Below are positions 13,795 through 26,315 of a stretch of 64,000 nucleotides of DNA, one piece after another. Below the pieces are notes generated by a model that did not search any database, was not told the DNA's origin, and was given only the letters and a program-made list of their open reading frames with translations. A program made the position numbers and the translations under genes. This stretch comes from Fimbriimonadaceae bacterium (lineage in GTDB: Bacteria; Armatimonadota; Fimbriimonadia; Fimbriimonadales; Fimbriimonadaceae). The stretch lies in contig JAHBTB010000003.1 in NCBI GenBank assembly GCA_019638795.1, positions 112,295 through 176,294 of the forward strand. The letters run 5' to 3'. Each line of letters begins with the position of its first letter. Position 1 is the stretch's first letter.

Positions 13795-13840
13795 GGAAAC
13801 CCTGGCATATTCGTGGCGCCACCGGCCAGAATGGGAGGTG

Positions 13841-14926
13841 ATGTCTGGATTCAACGGACTCGGATTGCATTTGGGGAACCTCTCTCGGCTGTCCGACGCC
13901 AAAACACGGAGTATCAGCCCGGAGAACTTCACGGGGGGCAAGGGCGAGGGGGGCAAGTCGACGGACGGGCCGGCGGCCGGGTGCGCCCGCGACCTCGGCG
14001 TCGGCTGGAAGCTTTCACCGTTTGTCCGGATCGAACCGAAGTCCGAACATGTGATGGCGGACATCGAGGGGCCGGGGGCGGTCCAACAAATTTGGCTCAC
14101 GCCGACCGGCAATTGGCGCTACACGATCATCCGCATCTATTGGGACGGGCAGGAACACCCCTCCGTCGAATGCCCGATCGGAGACTTCTTTGCCTGCGGC
14201 TGGGGAGAGTACGCCCAAGTGACCTCGTTGCCCGTTTGTGTCAACCCGGGCAGTGCCTTTAACTGCTACTGGGAAATGCCCTTCCGCAAGCGGTGCCGGA
14301 TCACGGTCACCAACCTCGCCGACGAGCAGATGACCCTGTACTACCAGGTCAACTACACCCTGACCGAGGTCCCCGAAGACTGCGCTTACTTCCACGCCCA
14401 GTTCCGCCGCACGAACCCCCTGCCTTACAAGGAGGTCTACACCATCCTGGAAGGCGTCAAGGGGCGGGGCCACTACGTGGGCACCTACATGGCCTGGCAG
14501 GTCAACAACAACCAGTGGTGGGGTGAGGGCGAGATCAAGTTCTTCATGGACGGGGACAAGGAATTCCCCACGATCTGCGGCACGGGCACAGAAGACTACT
14601 TCTGCGGGTCGTACAACTTCGACTTAGGCATCGAAAGGGGCGGGTACCGCGAGTTCACCACTCCCTACGCCGGATTGCCCCAGGTCATCCGGCCGGACGG
14701 CCTTTACCGGGCCAACACCCGGTTCGGCATGTACCGATGGCACATCATGGACCCGGTGCGCTTCGAAGAAGACCTGCGGGTGACGATCCAAGCCCTGGGA
14801 TGGCGGAGCGGCGGCCGCTACCTTCCTCTTCAGGACGACATCGCCAGCGTCGCCTACTGGTACCAGACCCTGCCGACCGCCCCGTTCCCCGAACTGCCGA
14901 GCCGCGACTACCTCGAGATCATCTGA
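13841..14926 (+). CDS. DUF2961-family protein
   Basis: About 361 residues and complete for the family, with the hallmark N-terminus NLSRLSDAKTRSISPENFTGG followed by a beta-sandwich core (GPGAVQQIWLTP, GTGTEDYFCGSYNF). DUF2961 proteins have a double jelly-roll fold, and some members are known to act on glycans such as difructose anhydride or arabinan. No signal peptide is visible here. The ATG at 13841 lies inside a perfect anti-16S complement (GGAGGTGAT at 13834-13842), so spacing is tight and an in-frame GTG at 13838 is an alternative. It opens the saccharide locus and may share an operator with the ABC operon. Confidence 0.88.
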   Translation: MSGFNGLGLHLGNLSRLSDAKTRSISPENFTGGKGEGGKSTDGPAAGCARDLGVGWKLSPFVRIEPKSEHVMADIEGPGAVQQIWLTPTGNWRYTIIRIYWDGQEHPSVECPIGDFFACGWGEYAQVTSLPVCVNPGSAFNCYWEMPFRKRCRITVTNLADEQMTLYYQVNYTLTEVPEDCAYFHAQFRRTNPLPYKEVYTILEGVKGRGHYVGTYMAWQVNNNQWWGEGEIKFFMDGDKEFPTICGTGTEDYFCGSYNFDLGIERGGYREFTTPYAGLPQVIRPDGLYRANTRFGMYRWHIMDPVRFEEDLRVTIQALGWRSGGRYLPLQDDIASVAYWYQTLPTAPFPELPSRDYLEII

Positions 14927-14954
14927 TTCCGAGGGCGTCGCGGCCCGGCGGGGC

Positions 14955-16085
14955 TCAGCGGCTCAGTCGGGCCCTCATGAGGACGACGTTGTACGGGTTC
15001 CACGTCGACATAAGGAAGTAGACCGTGGCGTTCTTCTGGGTTCCCTTGAAGAACTTCGGGATCATGTAGGGCCCGTACTCTCCGCCATAGTCGTTCTCCC
15101 GGCCCGGGTCATGCACCGAGTCGGCTTTCTTGACCTTCCAACTGATGTGCATGAACTTGCCGTAGCCGTCGCGGTCGGGGTCGAAGACGATGGTCGGGTC
15201 TGACCATGGCCCCCACGGGGTCTTGGCCGAGCGCAACGTGATGCCCCTGGGCTTGTCGCTGTTGTAGAGCATGATGTAGCGGCCCAACTGCGGGTTCCAC
15301 GCCACAGACAACTCCCCGACCACGGGATGGTCGAACAACGCCTTGGCGTTGTCTTCCGACGGGCTCCATCCGTTGCCGTCCCAATAGCGATAGGCGCTCT
15401 TTTTGTCGACGTCCTTGAGCGGCACGTAGGCCAGTCTGGGTGAGCTCCGCCGGTACTCGGCCCCGCTCGCCCACATGAAAAGGACCTTCCCCTGTTTCAC
15501 CGGAAAGCCCTTGAGCTTTGAGGCGTCGACGATCTGGGGGGAGACGTTGACGAAGTGGTTGCTGGAGAGGTCCAGCACCTTGACCCAGTTCAGGCCGTCC
15601 TTCGACCGGGCAAGGACGCTCCGGCCCATCACGACGCCCCGTTGTTCAAACCGGTGGGCCGTCGTGTAGAAGCCGTACATGTAACCGGCGTGGCTGAAGC
15701 CGCCGTTTGGCACTTCGAAACCGGCAAGACTGACCCCCGGGATCTTGACGGTGCCGTACTTGCCGTCCGGTGCGGTGATGAAGTCGAGCTTTAGACCATT
15801 GTCGGGGTTGGTGTCGCTGGAGTAAGCGATGGAGTCGCCGTCCACCGGACGGTCTGGCGTGTTCGGGCCTGTCGGCCACGTGTCACCAAAGAGGAAGACG
15901 AGTTTGCCGTTATGTTCAAAGGAGGCGCCCAAGTCGGTGCCGCGCAGTCCGAACCGGCTCTCGGTCTGGCTGTCGGTGGGTTTTTGGCGTTGCCGGTCGG
16001 TCTGACCGGTCACTTGAGAGACTTTGTCAACGGCGAGGACTTTGATCTCAGCCGCAAATGTGGTGAGGATGGCAGTGAGGAACAT
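14955..16085 (-). CDS. DUF4185-family secreted protein
   Basis: About 376 residues with a short export signal (MFLTAILTTFAAE). Five-bladed-propeller-like glycosidase features follow: LVFLFGDTWPTG, GVSLAGFEVPNGGFS, SVLARSKDGLNW, LSVAWNPQLGRYIMLYN, RSAKTPWGPWSDP and YGGEYGPYMIPKF. These match the DUF4185 family, related to GH43/GH62-type propellers, although the catalytic acids cannot be assigned by eye. It lies downstream of the pseudopilin gene pair on the same strand. The hairpin at 16098-16126 sits only 12 bp before its start codon and no Shine-Dalgarno site is visible, so expression probably depends on read-through or an overlooked promoter. Confidence 0.82.
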   Translation of the reverse strand: MFLTAILTTFAAEIKVLAVDKVSQVTGQTDRQRQKPTDSQTESRFGLRGTDLGASFEHNGKLVFLFGDTWPTGPNTPDRPVDGDSIAYSSDTNPDNGLKLDFITAPDGKYGTVKIPGVSLAGFEVPNGGFSHAGYMYGFYTTAHRFEQRGVVMGRSVLARSKDGLNWVKVLDLSSNHFVNVSPQIVDASKLKGFPVKQGKVLFMWASGAEYRRSSPRLAYVPLKDVDKKSAYRYWDGNGWSPSEDNAKALFDHPVVGELSVAWNPQLGRYIMLYNSDKPRGITLRSAKTPWGPWSDPTIVFDPDRDGYGKFMHISWKVKKADSVHDPGRENDYGGEYGPYMIPKFFKGTQKNATVYFLMSTWNPYNVVLMRARLSR

Positions 16086-16097
16086 GGGGGAGAAAAG

Positions 16098-16126
16098 GAC
16101 GCCGGCCAGGCGAGCTGGCCGGCGTC
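16098..16126 (-). terminator. Rho-independent terminator after the pseudopilin pair
   Basis: A perfect 12-bp stem (GACGCCGGCCAG paired with CTGGCCGGCGTC) with a 5-nt loop. On the minus strand it is followed by CCTTTTCT. It lies between the small membrane protein and the DUF4185 start, so it may act as an attenuator of the latter. Confidence 0.8.
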
Positions 16127-16134
16127 TGGTGCCA

Positions 16135-16338
16135 TTACCGTTGACCCGGGTTCTGGCTTTGCGACGTGGGGGATTTTCCGTCAGAAACCCCGTAAGCGGC
16201 TTTCAACTGGGGCGGCAAGGTGTTCTTGTCGCCGATCGTGGTTTCGCCGCCACCACCCTTGACGAGCATAGCCGCGAGCACCCCGACGATGATGACCGCC
16301 ACAATGACGATCACGGGTGTTGGGAGAGGTTTCTTGAT
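16135..16338 (-). CDS. Small single-pass membrane protein, probable ATC start
   Basis: A frame of 67 residues just downstream of the pseudopilin gene. It runs KKPLPTPVIVIVAVIIVGV then a short Gly-rich linker (KGGGGE) and a polar tail (TIGDKNTLPPQLKAAYGV, ending in QNPGQR). One transmembrane helix spans residues 8-27. No ATG or TTG is available. An AAGGAG stands six bases before an ATC codon at 16338, so ATC is the likely start; a GTG at codon 9 has no ribosome-binding site and falls inside the helix. It begins 10 bases after the pilin stop and ends before a strong terminator. Small K-P-x-P-T-P-V membrane proteins next to such pilins are, from memory, found in related phyla. Function unknown. 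Confidence 0.6.
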   Translation of the reverse strand: MKKPLPTPVIVIVAVIIVGVLAAMLVKGGGGETTIGDKNTLPPQLKAAYGVSDGKSPTSQSQNPGQR

Positions 16339-16348
16339 GGTCTTCTCC

Positions 16349-17218
16349 TTAGCCTCGGCAAGCCTGGATCGGATCGTCGGCCTTGTCGTCCTGGATCGTC
16401 CAGTCCGTCACACAGCCCGCGAACTTCTTCCGCGACTTGGCGTGGGTGTCCGTGTACGTGATGTTGATCTGGCCGTTGAACGCGCCGCCCTTGATCGGGT
16501 CGGTGGTCGTCGAGTCGAAGTAACCGATGACGGTGAAGCCGCACGGCAGTGCGCCGTTGACGACGACGTCCTTCGAGTCGACCGCCCACAGGTCGTGGAA
16601 GATGGCGTTCGTGAACAGGATGGTGTCCGCCGGGAGGGCGACCGCCGTCGCGTTCGTGTTGATGCCGTCGGGGCGGCTCACGCCATAGTGGCCCTTACCA
16701 AACGACCCGTCGCCCCAATCCGAGAGGACGCCGCCGCACTGGTCATGCCACAGCGAGGTGCCGGCCGTGTAGCCGCGGTCCTCGGTGTTGTTGATACCGT
16801 AGGAGATGTCGATGGTGTAACCGCTGTTGGTCTGCTTGGCAAGGCCTTCCTTGACCATCAGGTCCCAGTTCCAGTTCCACCGCCAGTCAAGGTTGTCCCA
16901 GCGCTGCGCATAAGCGGGCGAGAGGAACATCTGGACGTTCTTGGTGTACGGCTTGATCATCAAGTACCACAGCGTGGTCTGCGGGCCGTTGGGCGTCGGC
17001 GAGTTGTAGTGCGCGGGCGCATGATAGACGTCGTCGTAGTCCGACAGGTACAGGGCTTCGGCAATGCCGAGTTGCTTCAGGTTGCTGAGGTCTTGGGTCT
17101 TCTTTGCCGCCGTCTTCGCCTGGGCGAAAACAGGGAAAAGGATCGCCGCGAGGATCGCGATGATCGCGATGACGACGAGCAGTTCGATAAGCGTGAAGGC
17201 TCTTCTGGTTTGGTGCAT
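16349..17218 (-). CDS. Prepilin-type N-terminal cleavage/methylation protein (type II pseudopilin)
   Basis: About 289 residues. The type III signal is textbook: [20 protein letters not shown], with prepilin peptidase cleavage expected before Phe and Glu at +5, then a hydrophobic helix ([18 protein letters not shown]). After the helix come [28 protein letters not shown] and an H-rich C-terminal globular part, the pattern of the prepilin-like proteins highly duplicated in Armatimonadota and Planctomycetes. These are thought to form short pseudopili or surface fibres. It sits inside a saccharide locus, so a role in secretion or substrate capture is possible but unproven. The ATG at 17218 is preferred to one five codons upstream. 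Confidence 0.93.
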
Positions 17219-17262
17219 CTTTGCTACTTCCAATTGAGGATGACGTGAGAACAGGGCTGGGG

Positions 17263-18363
17263 TCAGCTGGACGACGAGAGTCGAGACACAGTCTCGTGGG
17301 CTTCAATAAACTGGGCAGGGATGCGGAGCGGGCCGCGTTCGATCTTCTCTCCGCGCATCAGCGCGTTCAAGCGGTTGACCGCGGAGATGCTCATCAGGTC
17401 CATCTGCTGGATGATCCGATGGAAGCGCCAGTGCTGGCGAAGGAACACGTGGCCGTAGTCGTTGAACGTGGCCACTTCGAAATCTCGACCGATCTGCAGG
17501 TTGAGTTGTTCGCAGGCCTCGTTGATCCCCATGGCCAAGCGGTCGTGGACGCAGAAGGCGGCGGTGGGCGGCTCGTCGGACACCCGCATGGCGACGAGCG
17601 CGTCGATCACCGACTGGAACATCGTCTCCGGGTCATAGTCGAGGGCCAACTGGATCCACCGCTCAAGCGATTTGCGCGGCTTGTCGGCCTCCGCGATCGC
17701 GGCGGAATAGCCCAAAAAGCGTTCGCGGACGCTTTGGGCGTGGTCGTTGTTACTGCCGAAGAACGCGATGCGACGGTGGCCGCGGCTGACGAGTTTCTTC
17801 ACCGCCAGGCGGCTCGCTTCGACGTTGTCGGTCAGGACGACCAAGTGCTCGCAACCGCGCGGGGCACGGTCGATGAGCACCAGGGGGTACCCGGTGTCGC
17901 TCAATTCGTTGAAAAGACCCGCGTTGGTGTCGCCGTCCGCGGGGTAACAGATGATGCCGTCGACTTCGCCCGCCAGACGCCGTAGGTTCTCGGCCTCACG
18001 CTCGGGGTCACCCTTGGAAGTCGAGACGACCAGCCTCGCGTCTTCGTCCAAGGCGTGTTCGATGTGCATCATCAAGTCGCCCTGGAACCTGACGTTCGCA
18101 TAGTCGACGATGTAGGCGACGCGGTTGGACTTGCGCGGGGCCTGGCTTGCCACGACGCTTCCCCACCGTCGCTGGCGGGTGATCAGACCCTGGCCCTGCA
18201 ACTCGTGCAGGGCCCGATGGGCGGTGTGCCGGCTCACTCTCAGCCTGACCGCCAAGGCCTCCTCCGTCTCGACCCGGTCACCCGGCAACAGAGCACCACT
18301 CGTGATCTGCGCCGCGATCTCGTCCGCGATCTTTTGCCAGGTTGCCCTCTGCACGGAAGTCAT
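17263..18363 (-). CDS. GntR-type DNA-binding domain fused to LacI-type sugar-binding domain (AraR-like regulator)
   Basis: About 366 residues. An N-terminal GntR winged helix ([21 protein letters not shown], then [21 protein letters not shown]) is followed by a periplasmic-binding-protein-like domain of the LacI/PurR type ([52 protein letters not shown]). This architecture is that of AraR-like repressors, which leave DNA on binding a sugar. It is divergent from the sugar ABC operon, and the shared motif at 18392-18411 lies between the two starts, so it probably represses the importer and itself. The ATG at 18363 is chosen over one 14 codons upstream because the HTH begins about ten residues later. 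Confidence 0.9.
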
Positions 18364-18391
18364 TTTACGACAAAAACTCAGGAAACGCAAA

Positions 18392-18411
18392 TATTCCCTG
18401 TGCAAAATAGA
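18392..18411. promoter_or_regulatory. Candidate operator in the regulator/ABC divergent promoter region
   Basis: TATTCCCTGTGCAAAATAGA, overlapping a TAGAAT hexamer (18408-18413) that could be the -10 of the ABC operon. A close copy is at 13777-13794. The site lies 29-48 bases upstream of the regulator start, so binding would cover both promoters. Confidence 0.45.
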
Positions 18412-18475
18412 ATCTCAGGCTATCATACGGGAACCTCAAAATCGAGTATCACCCCGACAGGAGGCTTGCTGACCA

Positions 18476-19834
18476 ATGCTAAGGGCAATCACCGTCGCCG
18501 CACTCGCCCTGCTCGTCTTCCGGCTCGTCATGCCGGAGCGGGCCGCGCCTAAACATGACGCCTCGTCCCCCGTCGAGGTGGAGATGTGCGTCTGGGGCAT
18601 GCCTTTCGAAAACGACCTCTACACCAAGGTCTACATCCCCGAGTTTGAGCGGCAGAACCCCGGCATCAAGGTTCGGTTCCACCACTTCGAAGACTATCCC
18701 AACCGCGTCTTGCTGTCCTACGCCGGAGGGATTTCACCCGACGTGATCCGCGAGAACACCGCGGGCAACATGCCCTGGATCCGGCGCGGGCTCGACCTGC
18801 CCCTGAACAAGTACATCGACGGCCCCGATGGGATCGACCGGAAAGACTTCATCCCGATCCTGTGGGACGCCCTCCAGTACGACGGCGAGACCTACGGTGT
18901 CCCCCAGGACATCAACATCCTCGGCCTCTTCTATAACAAAGACCTCTTTGACAAGGCCGGGATGGCGTACCCCGACGAGAACTGGACGTGGGACGATCTC
19001 AGCAAGGCCGCCGAAAAGCTGACCAAAGACACGGACGGCGACGGGCATCCCGAGATCATCGGCCTGAACATGGGCTGGAACGACGCCACCTTCCAACCAT
19101 TTGTCTTCCAGGCCGGAGGCAAGATCTGGTCCGACGACGGCGAGAAGGTCGTCATCGACAGCCCTGAAGCGGCAGGCGCCCTCAAGTTCTACAAGAGTCT
19201 GATGCACTCCTACACCCTCAGCCAGTCGAGCGACCAGCGCGGCGGCCTCGGCCCTGACAAGTTTTTTGAGGCCGGCAAGGTCGCCCTCTTCATCGACGGC
19301 AGTTGGCGGACTCCGTCACTCAAGAAGAACGCGCCGAACCTCCGGTTTGGCGTCGCCCCGCTTCCCCGCGGCAAATACCCCATGTCGGTCAGCGGCTCCT
19401 GCTTCTGGGGGATCAGCGCCCAGACAAAGCACCCCGACGAGGCTTGGAAGTTGGTCAAGTTCCTGAGCAGCAAGGAAGCCCTGATCGAGTATTGGCGCTA
19501 TCTGTGGGTCGCGCCGCCGGCCCGCTGGTCGGCCCTTCGCTCCCCCGAGTTCCGTGACGTGACCGGCGCCAAGGGGATCATTCCCGGCATCGACAGCCAG
19601 GAAGAGTTCGACGAGAAGTGCGGGTGGATACCGACCGTGCTGCAGAACAACTGGACCACGATCAAGCAGTCCAGCCAGCACTCCGACGTCCTCGGGATGT
19701 TCCTCCGCGAGGCGGTGGACCGCGTCCTCCTGCAAAACGCCGACCCGATGGAGTCGCTCAAGGACGCGGCACGCCGGGCGAACCAGCAGATCGCCGAGTC
19801 CAAGCGGGTTGAGAAGATGAGGGTGGGACCCTGA
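18476..19834 (+). CDS. Sugar ABC transporter, extracellular substrate-binding protein (family 1)
   Basis: About 452 residues. An N-terminal hydrophobic leader (MLRAITVAALALLVFRLVMP) has no lipobox Cys, so it is either membrane-anchored or released. The mature part has family-1 landmarks: VYIPEFERQNPGIKVRFHHF, GISPDVIRENT, LPLNKYIDG, YGVPQDINILGLFYNKDLFD, a glycine-rich GGLGPDKFFEAGKVALFIDG and SVSGSCFWGISAQTKHPDEAW. An AGGAGG about eleven bases upstream supports the ATG. It is the first gene of an operon with two permeases, with overlap at 19834. Likely substrate: an oligosaccharide released by enzymes of this locus. Confidence 0.92.
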   Translation: MLRAITVAALALLVFRLVMPERAAPKHDASSPVEVEMCVWGMPFENDLYTKVYIPEFERQNPGIKVRFHHFEDYPNRVLLSYAGGISPDVIRENTAGNMPWIRRGLDLPLNKYIDGPDGIDRKDFIPILWDALQYDGETYGVPQDINILGLFYNKDLFDKAGMAYPDENWTWDDLSKAAEKLTKDTDGDGHPEIIGLNMGWNDATFQPFVFQAGGKIWSDDGEKVVIDSPEAAGALKFYKSLMHSYTLSQSSDQRGGLGPDKFFEAGKVALFIDGSWRTPSLKKNAPNLRFGVAPLPRGKYPMSVSGSCFWGISAQTKHPDEAWKLVKFLSSKEALIEYWRYLWVAPPARWSALRSPEFRDVTGAKGIIPGIDSQEEFDEKCGWIPTVLQNNWTTIKQSSQHSDVLGMFLREAVDRVLLQNADPMESLKDAARRANQQIAESKRVEKMRVGP

Positions 19835-20715
19835 TGAAACCGAGACGCTCCAAAGACAACTGGGGGTGGGAGTTCATCGCGCCCGCCCTGCTCCTCATCA
19901 CCTTGTTCGTCATTGTGCCGTGCGCCTGGGGGATCGGCCTCAGCTTCACCGCCTTCGACGGGATCAGCAAGCCGTACTTCGTCGGGTTTGAGAACTACGC
20001 CCGCCTGAAGGACGACCCGCTGGTGTGGACCACCCTCACCAACACGGCGGTTTTTGTCCTCTTCACCTTACCGACCGGCCTGGCCCTGTCACTCGCCGTC
20101 GCGATGGCCCTGGACCAGAAGTGGTTCCGGGGCCGGTCGGCGATGCGGGCGATGTACTTCTTGCCCAACGTGACCAGCCTGGCCGCCGTCGCCTTCGTCT
20201 GGCAATGGCTGCTCAATCCCGAGTTCGGCTTGTTCAATGCCCTTCTTCGATCGTTCGGACTTCCCACCCCGGGCTGGCTAGGAGACCCCAACCTCGCGAT
20301 GCCGACCGTCGCCGCCGTCAGCGTGTGGCACGGGCTGGGCTTCAGTGTCCTCATTTACATCTCCGGGCTCAAGTCGATCCCCGACGAAGTCTTGGAGGCG
20401 GCCAAGATCGACGGCGCGAGTTTCTGGCAGAGCTTCCGCCACGTCACCTGGCCCTTGCTCACCCCGACCACCATGTTCCTCACGATCATGGGTGTCATCG
20501 GAGGCTTCCAAGTCTTCCAAAGCGTGTACATCATGACCGGCGGCGGACCGCTCGATAAGACCAGGGTTTATCTGTTCTACTTGTGGCAAACTGCGTTCCA
20601 AAGTTTAGACTTTGGTTATGCGTCAGCGATGGCCGTCCTCCTCTTCGCCATCGTCCTTGTCTTGACAGTCCTCCAACGGCAATACTACAACCGGAGGTTG
20701 CAGACATGGCAGTGA
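19834..20715 (+). CDS. Sugar ABC transporter permease (MalF/UgpA type)
   Basis: About 293 residues with six membrane spans and the cytoplasmic coupling loop EAAKIDGASFWQSFRHVTWPLL, the EAA-x3-G motif that docks on the ATPase. The N-terminus (WEFIAPALLLITLFVIVPCAW) and the C-terminal FAIVLVLTVLQRQYYNRR are typical of MalF-like CUT1 permeases. It overlaps the binding-protein gene by one base and the next permease by 10 bp. No ATPase gene follows. Confidence 0.94.
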   Translation: MKPRRSKDNWGWEFIAPALLLITLFVIVPCAWGIGLSFTAFDGISKPYFVGFENYARLKDDPLVWTTLTNTAVFVLFTLPTGLALSLAVAMALDQKWFRGRSAMRAMYFLPNVTSLAAVAFVWQWLLNPEFGLFNALLRSFGLPTPGWLGDPNLAMPTVAAVSVWHGLGFSVLIYISGLKSIPDEVLEAAKIDGASFWQSFRHVTWPLLTPTTMFLTIMGVIGGFQVFQSVYIMTGGGPLDKTRVYLFYLWQTAFQSLDFGYASAMAVLLFAIVLVLTVLQRQYYNRRLQTWQ

Positions 20716-21542
20716 AGCCGCTCACGCGGATTGTCCGGGGGTCGGTGTGGACCATCGTCACGTTGGTGGGCCTGGCCATGCTCGTGCCGTTCCTGTGGAT
20801 GGTCCTCACCTCCCTGCGCACCGACGCCGACGCCTTCGCTTTCCCGCCGAAGTTCTTGCCCCTGCCCCTGCGGTTCGAAAACTACGTGGCGGCGTGGAAA
20901 ATCGCGCCGTTTGCCCGGTTCTTCTTCAACAGCATCGTCGTCAGCGTGACGATCACCGTCGGCAGCCTGCTCATTAACTCCATGGCGGCGTTCGGTTTTG
21001 CCAAGTATGATTTCAAGGGCCGGAACGTCTTGTTCCTCGGGCTTCTCGCCACCCTGATGATCCCGTTCCAAGTGAACATGATCCCGACCTTCTTGTTGCT
21101 CAAGCAATTGCGATGGTTGGACAGTTTCCCTGGCCTGATCGTCCCCGGCCTGGCCGGTGCGTTCGGCATCTTCTTCCTCCGCCAGTACATGATCACGATC
21201 CCGGACGACTATCTCGACGCCGCCCGCATCGACGGGGCCAGCGAGTACCGGATCTATGCCCGGATCATCATGCCCTTGGCTAAACCCGCCGTCGCGACGT
21301 TGGCGCTCTTCACGTTCCTTGGTGCGTGGAACGACTTCCTCGGCCCCTTGATCGTCGTCAAGAGCGACGAGATGCGCACCTTGCCCCTCGCGATCTCCGC
21401 CCTCTCTGCCGGCCACTACGTGATGAGTTGGCCCTTGCTGATGGCGGGGGCGACCTTTGTCGTCGTGCCGGTGCTGATCGTCTACCTCTTCAGCCAGCGC
21501 TACGTCGTCGAAGGCATCGCGCTCGGGGGGCTCAAAGGTTGA
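20706..21542 (+). CDS. Sugar ABC transporter permease (MalG/UgpE type)
   Basis: About 278 residues with six membrane spans. It has the CUT1 EAA-type loop DAARIDGASEYRIYARIIMPLA and a C-terminus ending FSQRYVVEGIALGGLKG, the classical MalG/UgpE ending. The ATG at 20706 is chosen because it gives the usual N-terminus (VWTIVTLVGLAMLVPFLWMVL). The open frame extends further upstream but that part is inside the previous gene. The gene overlaps both neighbours. Energising would require a shared MsmK/UgpC-like ATPase encoded elsewhere. Confidence 0.94.
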   Translation: MAVKPLTRIVRGSVWTIVTLVGLAMLVPFLWMVLTSLRTDADAFAFPPKFLPLPLRFENYVAAWKIAPFARFFFNSIVVSVTITVGSLLINSMAAFGFAKYDFKGRNVLFLGLLATLMIPFQVNMIPTFLLLKQLRWLDSFPGLIVPGLAGAFGIFFLRQYMITIPDDYLDAARIDGASEYRIYARIIMPLAKPAVATLALFTFLGAWNDFLGPLIVVKSDEMRTLPLAISALSAGHYVMSWPLLMAGATFVVVPVLIVYLFSQRYVVEGIALGGLKG

Positions 21543-25176: not shown

Positions 25177-25689
25177 TCAGAGGGCCTTGGACGGCGCCCC
25201 GGCGATCTTCGCCATCTCTTGGCTGAGTTTGGCCGCGGTGGCGGGGTCCAAGCCGGCGAGGAGCTCGGCCGCCTTCTCCGCTTCCATCCGGGTCAAGATC
25301 AGCGGAAGTTCGGCCTGGGGATACGCCTTGGCGATTTTCACAAGGTCAGCGGTCTCCATGTTGTTCCAGACCGAGGCGATCTTCTTGGCCCCCTTCACGG
25401 GATCAGGCGGCTCGACGGCAGCGACCGGCTTCTTGGCCGGAGCGTCCGGCTTCGTACCGGCCGGGTCGGCGGTGGTGGCGGCAGGCTTCGCCTCGGCCGT
25501 GTGCTCAGTCAAGGGCTTCGCCTTCGACGGCTCCTTGCCTTCTCCGTACGTGACCGGGGGGGTCTTGCCCTTTTTGGCGAGGAACGGCACCTTGCCCATC
25601 GCCGCCATCGCGGCGAAGCCACCCCCGCCAAGCACGAGCAGGCCCACCACGATCCCGATGACCAGACCCTTCCCCTTCTTTCCAGCCAT
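25177..25689 (-). CDS. MotE-like flagellar protein (MgtE N-terminal-like domain)
   Basis: A 170-residue protein anchored by one N-terminal helix (GLVIGIVVGLLVLGGGGFAAMAAM). A long Pro/Ala/Lys-rich linker (residues 45-105) follows, and then a C-terminal helical domain (WNNMETADLVKIAKAYPQ, ILTRMEAEKAAELLAGLDP) like the MgtE N-domain. This is the architecture of MotE/FliL-neighbour proteins that chaperone the flagellar stator component MotC or act at the motor. It is the last gene of the flagellar operon; its ATG overlaps the upstream stop by one base (TAATG). Confidence 0.75.
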   Translation of the reverse strand: MAGKKGKGLVIGIVVGLLVLGGGGFAAMAAMGKVPFLAKKGKTPPVTYGEGKEPSKAKPLTEHTAEAKPAATTADPAGTKPDAPAKKPVAAVEPPDPVKGAKKIASVWNNMETADLVKIAKAYPQAELPLILTRMEAEKAAELLAGLDPATAAKLSQEMAKIAGAPSKAL

Positions 25690-26315
25690 TAGAGCCCTCC
25701 GCCAGCCCGGATGCGCTCAGCGTAGCCAAGCACCTTGCGCACGTAGTCTTGGGTCTCGGGGATCTCCGGGATGCCCTTGGCCCTGGCCACCGCGCCAGGC
25801 CCCGCGTTGTAGGCGGCGAGGGCCAGCTTCACGTCACCAAACTGCTTGAGCATCTGGCTGAGGTACTTGGCCCCGCCTTCGAGGTTTTGGCGCGGGTCGA
25901 ACGGATCGTCGACACCCAGGGCCCGGGCCGTGGCCGGCATCAACTGGGCCAAGCCCATCGCCCCGGCCGAGCTGACGAGACGGGAGTTGAAGTCGCTTTC
26001 TTGCTGGACGAGACCCTGGAACAGGGCGGTGTCCACCCCGTACTTGGCCGCCGCCTCGCGGACCATGTCCAACAACGCGGCCCGGGCCGTGCTCGGCACC
26101 CTTCCCAGTCCAAACGCCATCGGGTCCATCGGGGCGAGAGACCCGCCTGGACCCGGCTTGATCTTGCCCGCGAGTGTAGCGGCGAAGCTGCCTGGACTCG
26201 CCGTCGGTTGCGGGCTGACGTCGGCCCCCAGCTTTCCCGAGATGCTCGCGATCTGGTTTTCGATCTCTTGGATGCGGGCCAGGACGCCCTCCGGACCCTT
26301 CATTTGGATCGTCAT
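25689..26315 (-). CDS. Lytic transglycosylase (SLT domain), flagellar
   Basis: About 208 residues. The C-terminal half is a soluble-lytic-transglycosylase domain: AAKYGVDTALFQGLVQQESDFNS with catalytic Glu, SSAGAMGLAQLMPATA, NLEGGAKYL and LALAAYNAGPGAVA. No signal peptide is visible, so it is probably exported by the flagellar type III apparatus, as FlgJ-type muramidases are. It would open peptidoglycan for the rod. The start at 26315 overlaps the fliJ stop by ATGA; an upstream in-frame start would lie inside fliJ. The N-terminal 90 residues (QEIENQIASISGKLG, then Pro/Gly-rich) may be the export and cap-interacting part. Confidence 0.88.
   Translation of the reverse strand: MTIQMKGPEGVLARIQEIENQIASISGKLGADVSPQPTASPGSFAATLAGKIKPGPGGSLAPMDPMAFGLGRVPSTARAALLDMVREAAAKYGVDTALFQGLVQQESDFNSRLVSSAGAMGLAQLMPATARALGVDDPFDPRQNLEGGAKYLSQMLKQFGDVKLALAAYNAGPGAVARAKGIPEIPETQDYVRKVLGYAERIRAGGGL

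Follow-up and report, generated by a model that had tools for sequence, protein, structure and literature searches.

A small membrane-protein gene with ATC as its most likely start codon behind a type IV pilin gene in a Fimbriimonadaceae bacterium

Directly behind a type IV pilin gene in the genome of a Fimbriimonadaceae bacterium lies a frame for a small single-pass membrane protein of 67 amino acids (16135..16338, minus strand), for which ATC is the most likely start codon. Positions are those of the window, by which is meant the whole stretch of 64,000 nucleotides analysed, and the small protein is termed the partner. Taking the evidence together, it is probable that this is the genuine gene of an inner-membrane protein that is a standing partner of the pilin, initiated at ATC at a low rate after termination of pilin translation.

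The partner frame and its start codon

On the minus strand the pilin gene ends with TAA at 16351–16349, followed by GGAGAAGACC and then by the ATC (16338–16336), which sits 10 bases past the pilin stop. The Shine–Dalgarno sequence AAGGAG (16345..16350) overlaps the pilin stop by two bases and is located 6 bases before the ATC. Reading of these positions on the minus strand gives the spacing that the sequence-only reading had described. The frame continues for 67 codons from the ATC and terminates with TAA at 16137–16135. According to the open-reading-frame listing there is no in-frame ATG, GTG or TTG between the upstream stop of this frame and the ATC, and direct reading of 19 of the 23 codons upstream of the ATC gave no usual start. 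The first usual start after the upstream stop is the GTG at codon 9 (16312..16314, minus strand), in agreement with the earlier statement that neither ATG nor TTG is available.

The partner has a single hydrophobic stretch. The AlphaFold2 model, based upon an alignment of 40 rows, has a helix at residues 7–28 (pLDDT of at least 90 at 21 residues) and a loose tail at about residues 55–61, so the protein is as first described, a chain of 67 residues with one membrane helix. The positive charges would place the N-terminus inside, with the helix spanning the inner membrane and a short flexible tail outside; this topology is part of the explanation that we consider probable. Initiation at the GTG would drop both lysines and the conserved P-x-P, and just two of the 22 predicted helix residues. 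Of the two earlier objections to this codon, the absence of a Shine–Dalgarno sequence stands, while the claim that it would cut the helix was overstated.

A 12-pair hairpin (16126–16098, minus strand) begins 8 bases past the partner stop codon and is followed by CTTTTCTCCC, a short T-run. The z of this fold is −3.4. It has the longest stem among nine terminator-like sites in 16000–18600, where shuffled sequences average 2.0 sites, and it corresponds to the strong terminator proposed just past the partner stop.

A family of small membrane proteins behind pilin genes

On comparative evidence the partner frame is a real gene of a small membrane protein, belonging to a family modelled by neither Pfam nor NCBIfam. 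A profile of 64 relatives (window left out), which had first been found by alignments including the window protein so that look-alikes are favoured, placed the window frame as the sole one of 1121 stop-to-stop frames above the inclusion threshold (E = 2.9e-9). The upstream pilin was no criterion in the search for relatives, but was required when the profile rows were gathered. A second profile, of 61 relatives, contained none of the orthologues of the window, of the related genome G121 and of a further relative, G101; the orthologue in G009 and one other partner of G101 had been taken out as well. In the window, G121 and G101 loci 3 of 1822 frames were above the inclusion threshold of this profile, all of them partner orthologues (E = 2e-14 for G121, 9e-9 for the window and 2.5e-7 for G101). 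The matches of the window and G101 begin at profile position 2, the residue after the ATC, and the ATC therefore occupies the place of the start methionine of the relatives.

The N-terminus has the family pattern of K-x-x-[LIV]-P-x-P/G followed by one helix (61-relative profile and alignment), with K-K-P-x-P-T-P conserved in the alignment, while the tail varies among relatives. In keeping with the family as defined here, the gene is directly behind a pilin gene on the same strand. Family members start with ATG (rarely GTG); the window partner has ATC at the aligned position. Scanning of 40 members against Pfam and NCBIfam gave no convincing family, with at most two members per model and a best E of 0.00027. 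A search among the relatives with the single partner sequence gave weak matches, the best outside its own genome being 9.9e-4; it was gene order and profiles that revealed the family. The accessible portions of the literature on pilins with small lipoproteins or membrane proteins contained no description of it that we could find. Elsewhere in the window, a minus-strand frame with an N-terminal hydrophobic stretch (25180–25716) gave partner-profile matches below threshold (E = 0.11 and 0.56).

The pilin was searched for in 85 genomes from the family, scoring up to 28 candidates per genome, and afterwards in 291 from the phylum, scoring up to 8. This gave 33 pilin matches with E no higher than 1e-36, spread over 23 of the 291 genomes, the window's own included; some of the 23 hold two or three matches, which are thus not all strict orthologues. 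Behind these 33 pilins there are 29 membrane partners and two lipoproteins (G007 and G192), and in two cases (G182 and G190) no neighbour was found. The idea that the partner is a membrane-protein neighbour of the pilin is thus upheld by homologues behind pilin genes across the phylum.

Conservation of the ATC codon

Behind the closest pilin matches, 27 of 29 partners have ATG at the aligned start position, while the window and G101 have ATC. ATC is therefore found in 2 of 29 partners overall, and in two of the three closest orthologues, the third (G121) having ATG. Since 27 partners start with ATG, weak initiation is no property of the family, and the tightly limited partner of the original description is a supposition. 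Homologues starting elsewhere, sought as evidence against the reading, did not appear: the relatives begin at the same place, with ATG.

G101 is a deep relative (the two pilins are 59% identical) whose assembly is one contig of 5,231,762 bases. Its sequence at this point is TAAAGGAGAAACAAG-ATC-AAG-AAT-CCA. The pilin stop closes the partner frame four codons upstream of the ATC with no usual start between them, and downstream none comes before codon 18, which falls midway along the helix. Because G101 has ATC at the homologous place and no usual codon before codon 18, ATC is judged from the alignment to be the most likely start of the partner. Gene callers would overlook such a protein, as had been anticipated, or start it wrongly: usual start rules would shorten the window protein, and in G101 would remove the N-terminus together with about half or more of the helix.

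A tree of 15 pilins has the form (window, (G121, G101)), with support of 100/99 and 98/97. Either the ancestor had ATC and G121 reverted to ATG, or ATC arose twice; both require two changes. Whichever the ancestry, two intact ATC frames have, as judged by this comparison, stood for a long time. The dN/dS ratios are about 0.66 for window–G101 and 0.29 for G101–G121, with dS high or undefined, so that selection is weakly visible. Compensation for the ATC by a stronger Shine–Dalgarno sequence was considered and dropped, since in G121, whose orthologue starts with ATG, a G-run gives a more favourable duplex energy (−10.6, compared with −8.2 and −8.8 for the ATC pair, using an anti-Shine–Dalgarno sequence taken from general knowledge). 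Hiding of the Shine–Dalgarno sequence in a hairpin was not significant (z of −1.1 in the window and +0.7 in G101).

Alternative explanations

The ATC is one base away from the ATG of almost all homologues, and could reflect loss of the start by an ATG-to-ATC mutation, leaving the gene silent as a young pseudogene in each lineage. There is a parallel in a PAAR copy of Neisseria, where an ATg-to-ATc change is reported to have probably hidden the gene from annotation (PMC10210955). For the partner we think this unlikely. Both ATC frames are intact, with a Shine–Dalgarno sequence and family resemblance, despite the divergence of the pilins, and a double loss of the start or a long silence with no stop or frameshift would be improbable; the dN/dS ratios point weakly the same way. 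Translation might instead begin at GTG codon 9 in the window, making the upstream ATC irrelevant. This codon is the first usual start, and of the predicted helix it would leave 20 of 22 residues. However, it lacks a Shine–Dalgarno sequence, and the conserved K-K-P-x-P-T-P would be lost. Moreover codon 9 of G101 is no usual start. G101 has no alternative to its ATC before a codon inside the helix and the GTG of the window is not kept there, which favours the ATC start, so that initiation at GTG seems quite improbable.

The window comes from a draft assembly in 18 contigs, and the base in question rests on one genome of its species. A sequencing or assembly error of one base at the ATC has nevertheless very little probability, as ATC is found at the same place in G101, a separate single-contig genome. 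Finally, the partner might be joined to the pilin as one fused chain, through readthrough at the pilin stop or frameshifting, as could be imagined from G101 where it is in the pilin's own frame directly after the TAA. This is the most far-fetched of the alternatives: in the window the partner is in another frame than the pilin, and the partners of relatives start from −4 to +97 bases from the pilin stop with an ATG or GTG of their own (locus L174 left out).

Precedents for AUN initiation

The infC gene of Escherichia coli starts with AUU, and AUN initiation controlled by IF3 is generally the rule for infC. To our knowledge, there is hardly any record of AUC as a start codon in natural use in bacteria. 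In infC of the window genome, the stretch leading from the upstream stop to the IF3 domain is devoid of ATG, GTG and TTG, and a probable ATA start is located behind GAGGTGG (L136:1440-1520; G000:C1, about 302335-302415). Among 30 of 40 infC matches, 17 loci have no usual codon before the domain and 13 have at least one, so that a non-canonical start need not apply to all infC genes of the lineage. Since infC loci without usual starts are present, IF3-controlled AUN initiation seems to operate in this lineage. The infC gene at L219 may use ATC.

In Staphylococcus aureus the start of infC is reported to be AUA, that of cvfC1 (61 residues) AUU and those of ccpN and citZ AUA; the last three give about 10% of the yield of AUG in poor medium, rising at ccpN to as much as 30% in rich medium (PMC13009471). 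In a reconstituted system IF3 was reported to be less strict on the third codon base than on the other two, weak third-base pairs being disfavoured (PMC10158994), and an AUC mutant of a Bacillus reporter to have much lower expression (PMC10303841). Reinitiation is described as dropping steeply with distance from the stop, with close gene pairs enriched in complex subunits (PMC10666635); the 10-base gap between pilin stop and ATC would fit partial coupling. We found no demonstration of a natural bacterial AUC start in the excerpts on AUC or ATC start codons, which mostly concern mitochondrial genomes.

The partner resembles infC and the other AUN-start genes in the presence of a Shine–Dalgarno sequence before the AUN start; cvfC1 is also a short protein, and infC of the window genome also lacks a usual start. 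It differs in its AUC codon and its operon place behind a pilin. The codons of cvfC1 and ccpN are reported to be conserved, whereas the ATC is found in 2 of 29 partners; the closer resemblance is with citZ, which according to the same report has AUA in one lineage of S. aureus (PMC13009471). An ATC start proposed for L12ae of the archaeon Staphylothermus marinus was deduced from alignment of homologues, as for the partner, but L12ae is an archaeal ribosomal gene and the excerpt seen presents no operon or Shine–Dalgarno argument (PMC2678158). As AUN starts with a Shine–Dalgarno sequence are already known, the ATC of the partner is not a new initiation principle.

The pilin and its sugar-utilisation locus

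The pilin or pseudopilin gene (16349..17218, minus strand) is taken to start at ATG 17218, with TTG 17233 also possible. Its prepilin N-terminal motif matches PF07963 (33.2 bits; cut-off 21.2) and TIGR02532 (30.9 bits; cut-off 16.3). N_methyl is the sole Pfam match at E up to 0.001, neither DUF1559 nor SBP_bac_10 being found at this level, and the label 'DUF1559-like' given to the pilin at the outset thus finds no backing in Pfam. The model has the long pilin helix at residues 10–60 with a poorly modelled head (mean pLDDT 68); no solved structure matched it significantly at an E of 0.001 or below. Compared with solved sequences, the pilin is best matched by geopilin and PilA, over the N-terminal part. 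The prepilin N-terminus and helix are features of the pilin; the partner lacks a prepilin motif and is no pilin.

A GntR-N/LacI-type sugar regulator (17263..18405, minus strand) ends 44 bases before the pilin ATG. Divergent from it is the binding protein of a sugar ABC transporter (18476..19834, plus strand), followed by two ABC permeases (19834..20715 and 20703..21542, plus strand) that were named by eye and are conserved in L243, L244 and L208. On the other side of the partner are a DUF4185 protein (14955..16085, minus strand) and a DUF2961 protein (13838..14926, plus strand), assigned by Pfam match and literature to GH183 and GH172 respectively. The order of ABC transporter divergent from GntR/LacI regulator, pilin, partner and DUF4185 is common to the window, G101 and G121, the genes having about 56–76% identity (tblastn). 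DUF2961 is near the locus in the window and G101 (78%), and had no match in the stretch of G121 that was read. These families are reported to include endo-D-arabinofuranases (GH183) and exo-D-arabinofuranosidases (GH172) (PMC10115798), and GH172 also holds a difructose-dianhydride enzyme (PMC8605356). The features sought in a D-arabinan locus, DUF4185 and DUF2961 beside a sugar transporter and regulator (Pfam), are present in the window, with both families in G101 and DUF4185 also in G121. Window 13838–21542, with the pilin inside it, is a candidate locus for the utilisation of D-arabinan or fructan.

For more distant pilin matches these neighbours were absent from the stretches read, the exceptions being G007, G146 and G091, where a regulator or a transporter was matched. 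The array in G007 (L208:1290-9614; G007:C15) comprises a LacI-type regulator, a pilin, a lipoprotein partner, two hydrolase-like genes (by eye) and an ABC sugar transporter. In G204, pilin and partner come after a regulator that by eye resembles the LacI type. Judged by these two arrays, the regulator-linked pilin with a partner seems to be an old arrangement, the arabinan link being narrower.

Proposed role of the partner

Under the explanation that we prefer, of a weakly initiated gene for a standing pilin partner, the operon would be induced together with the sugar locus and the pilin made in quantity. Ribosomes terminating pilin translation at the TAA would lie over the AAGGAG, and a fraction of them would use initiator tRNA to start at the AUC, so that less partner than pilin would be produced. 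The partner would be placed next to the pilin in the inner membrane, in which pilins reside until they are assembled, and by means of its helix or outer tail it may help to hold, guide or release the pilin, affecting assembly, retention or anchoring. It would act during growth on a D-arabinan- or fructan-like sugar. A weak, IF3-sensitive AUC would thus set a low ratio of partner to pilin from one sugar-controlled operon. The further proposal, that selection has maintained the AUC in two distant bacteria as a means of dosage control, and that beyond this locus a large undescribed class of small membrane-tethered partners accompanies many pilins of the phylum, is a tentative one that we hold to be rather doubtful.

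The window ATC provides a probable AUC start with a comparative case, of a kind that gene callers cannot see, and the partner represents a protein family lacking a Pfam or NCBIfam model that is tied to the pilin genes of the phylum. The placement of the pilin–partner pair inside a sugar locus suggests that these pilins may serve in polysaccharide capture, beyond motility or attachment.

Small neighbours of other pilins

Examination of 149 loci from relatives gave 105 distinct pilin frames, 68 of them (the window's own included) with a small hydrophobic frame right behind. The other 67 hydrophobic frames start with ATG (65) or GTG (2), under an assignment that prefers ATG when present; most of these genes come from loci fetched with the window protein or a profile containing it, and one row (L174) looks like a chance frame. 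On re-reading 36 loci that had no partner row, 34 exhibited a hydrophobic frame, each with one or more of ATG, GTG and TTG no further than 12 codons from where the match begins; several of these are non-members (pilins and others). When pilins of relatives were fetched by pilin similarity alone, a partner was behind 5 of the 25 parsed (29 loci examined). In G101 a partner is present for 17 of the 30 pilins examined, from 103 N_methyl matches, with ATG, GTG or TTG available in all 17.

In the window genome a small hydrophobic frame comes after 18 of the 41 pilin stops, compared with 4 of 188 other genes (Fisher p = 4e-12). This control used a stricter gene caller and drew on the window and ten stretches of 20 kb under the same rule; a cruder caller, which missed the window's own pilin, gave 5 of 201. 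A looser rule gave 15 lipoprotein neighbours, five of membrane type (of which L034 looks lipoprotein-like) and 21 with none, this last group including L048 that was counted positive under the stricter rule. Pairing of pilin and partner is thus common but not general, and many pilins of the phylum go with a small membrane-anchored or lipoprotein neighbour.

The small pilin-linked lipoproteins of these genomes are like the partner in their position behind pilins, their size and their tethering to the membrane. They are lipid-anchored, in contrast to the N-terminal helix of the partner, and it is a lipoprotein that the related pilins of G007 and G192 carry. That a lipoprotein can replace the partner suggests that tethering of a short outer tail to the membrane is what matters. 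Genomes of the phylum may have dozens of pilins. The window genome (2.7 Mb) has 49 N_methyl matches (loci L032–L076), many directly followed by a lipoprotein gene (e.g. L036, L050 and L061). At L042 (G000:C7, about 41000) a lipoprotein frame overlaps the pilin stop. Its best-placed start would be CTG (in a CTGA overlap); as there is a TTG in frame further upstream, it was dropped as a second non-canonical partner start of the window genome.
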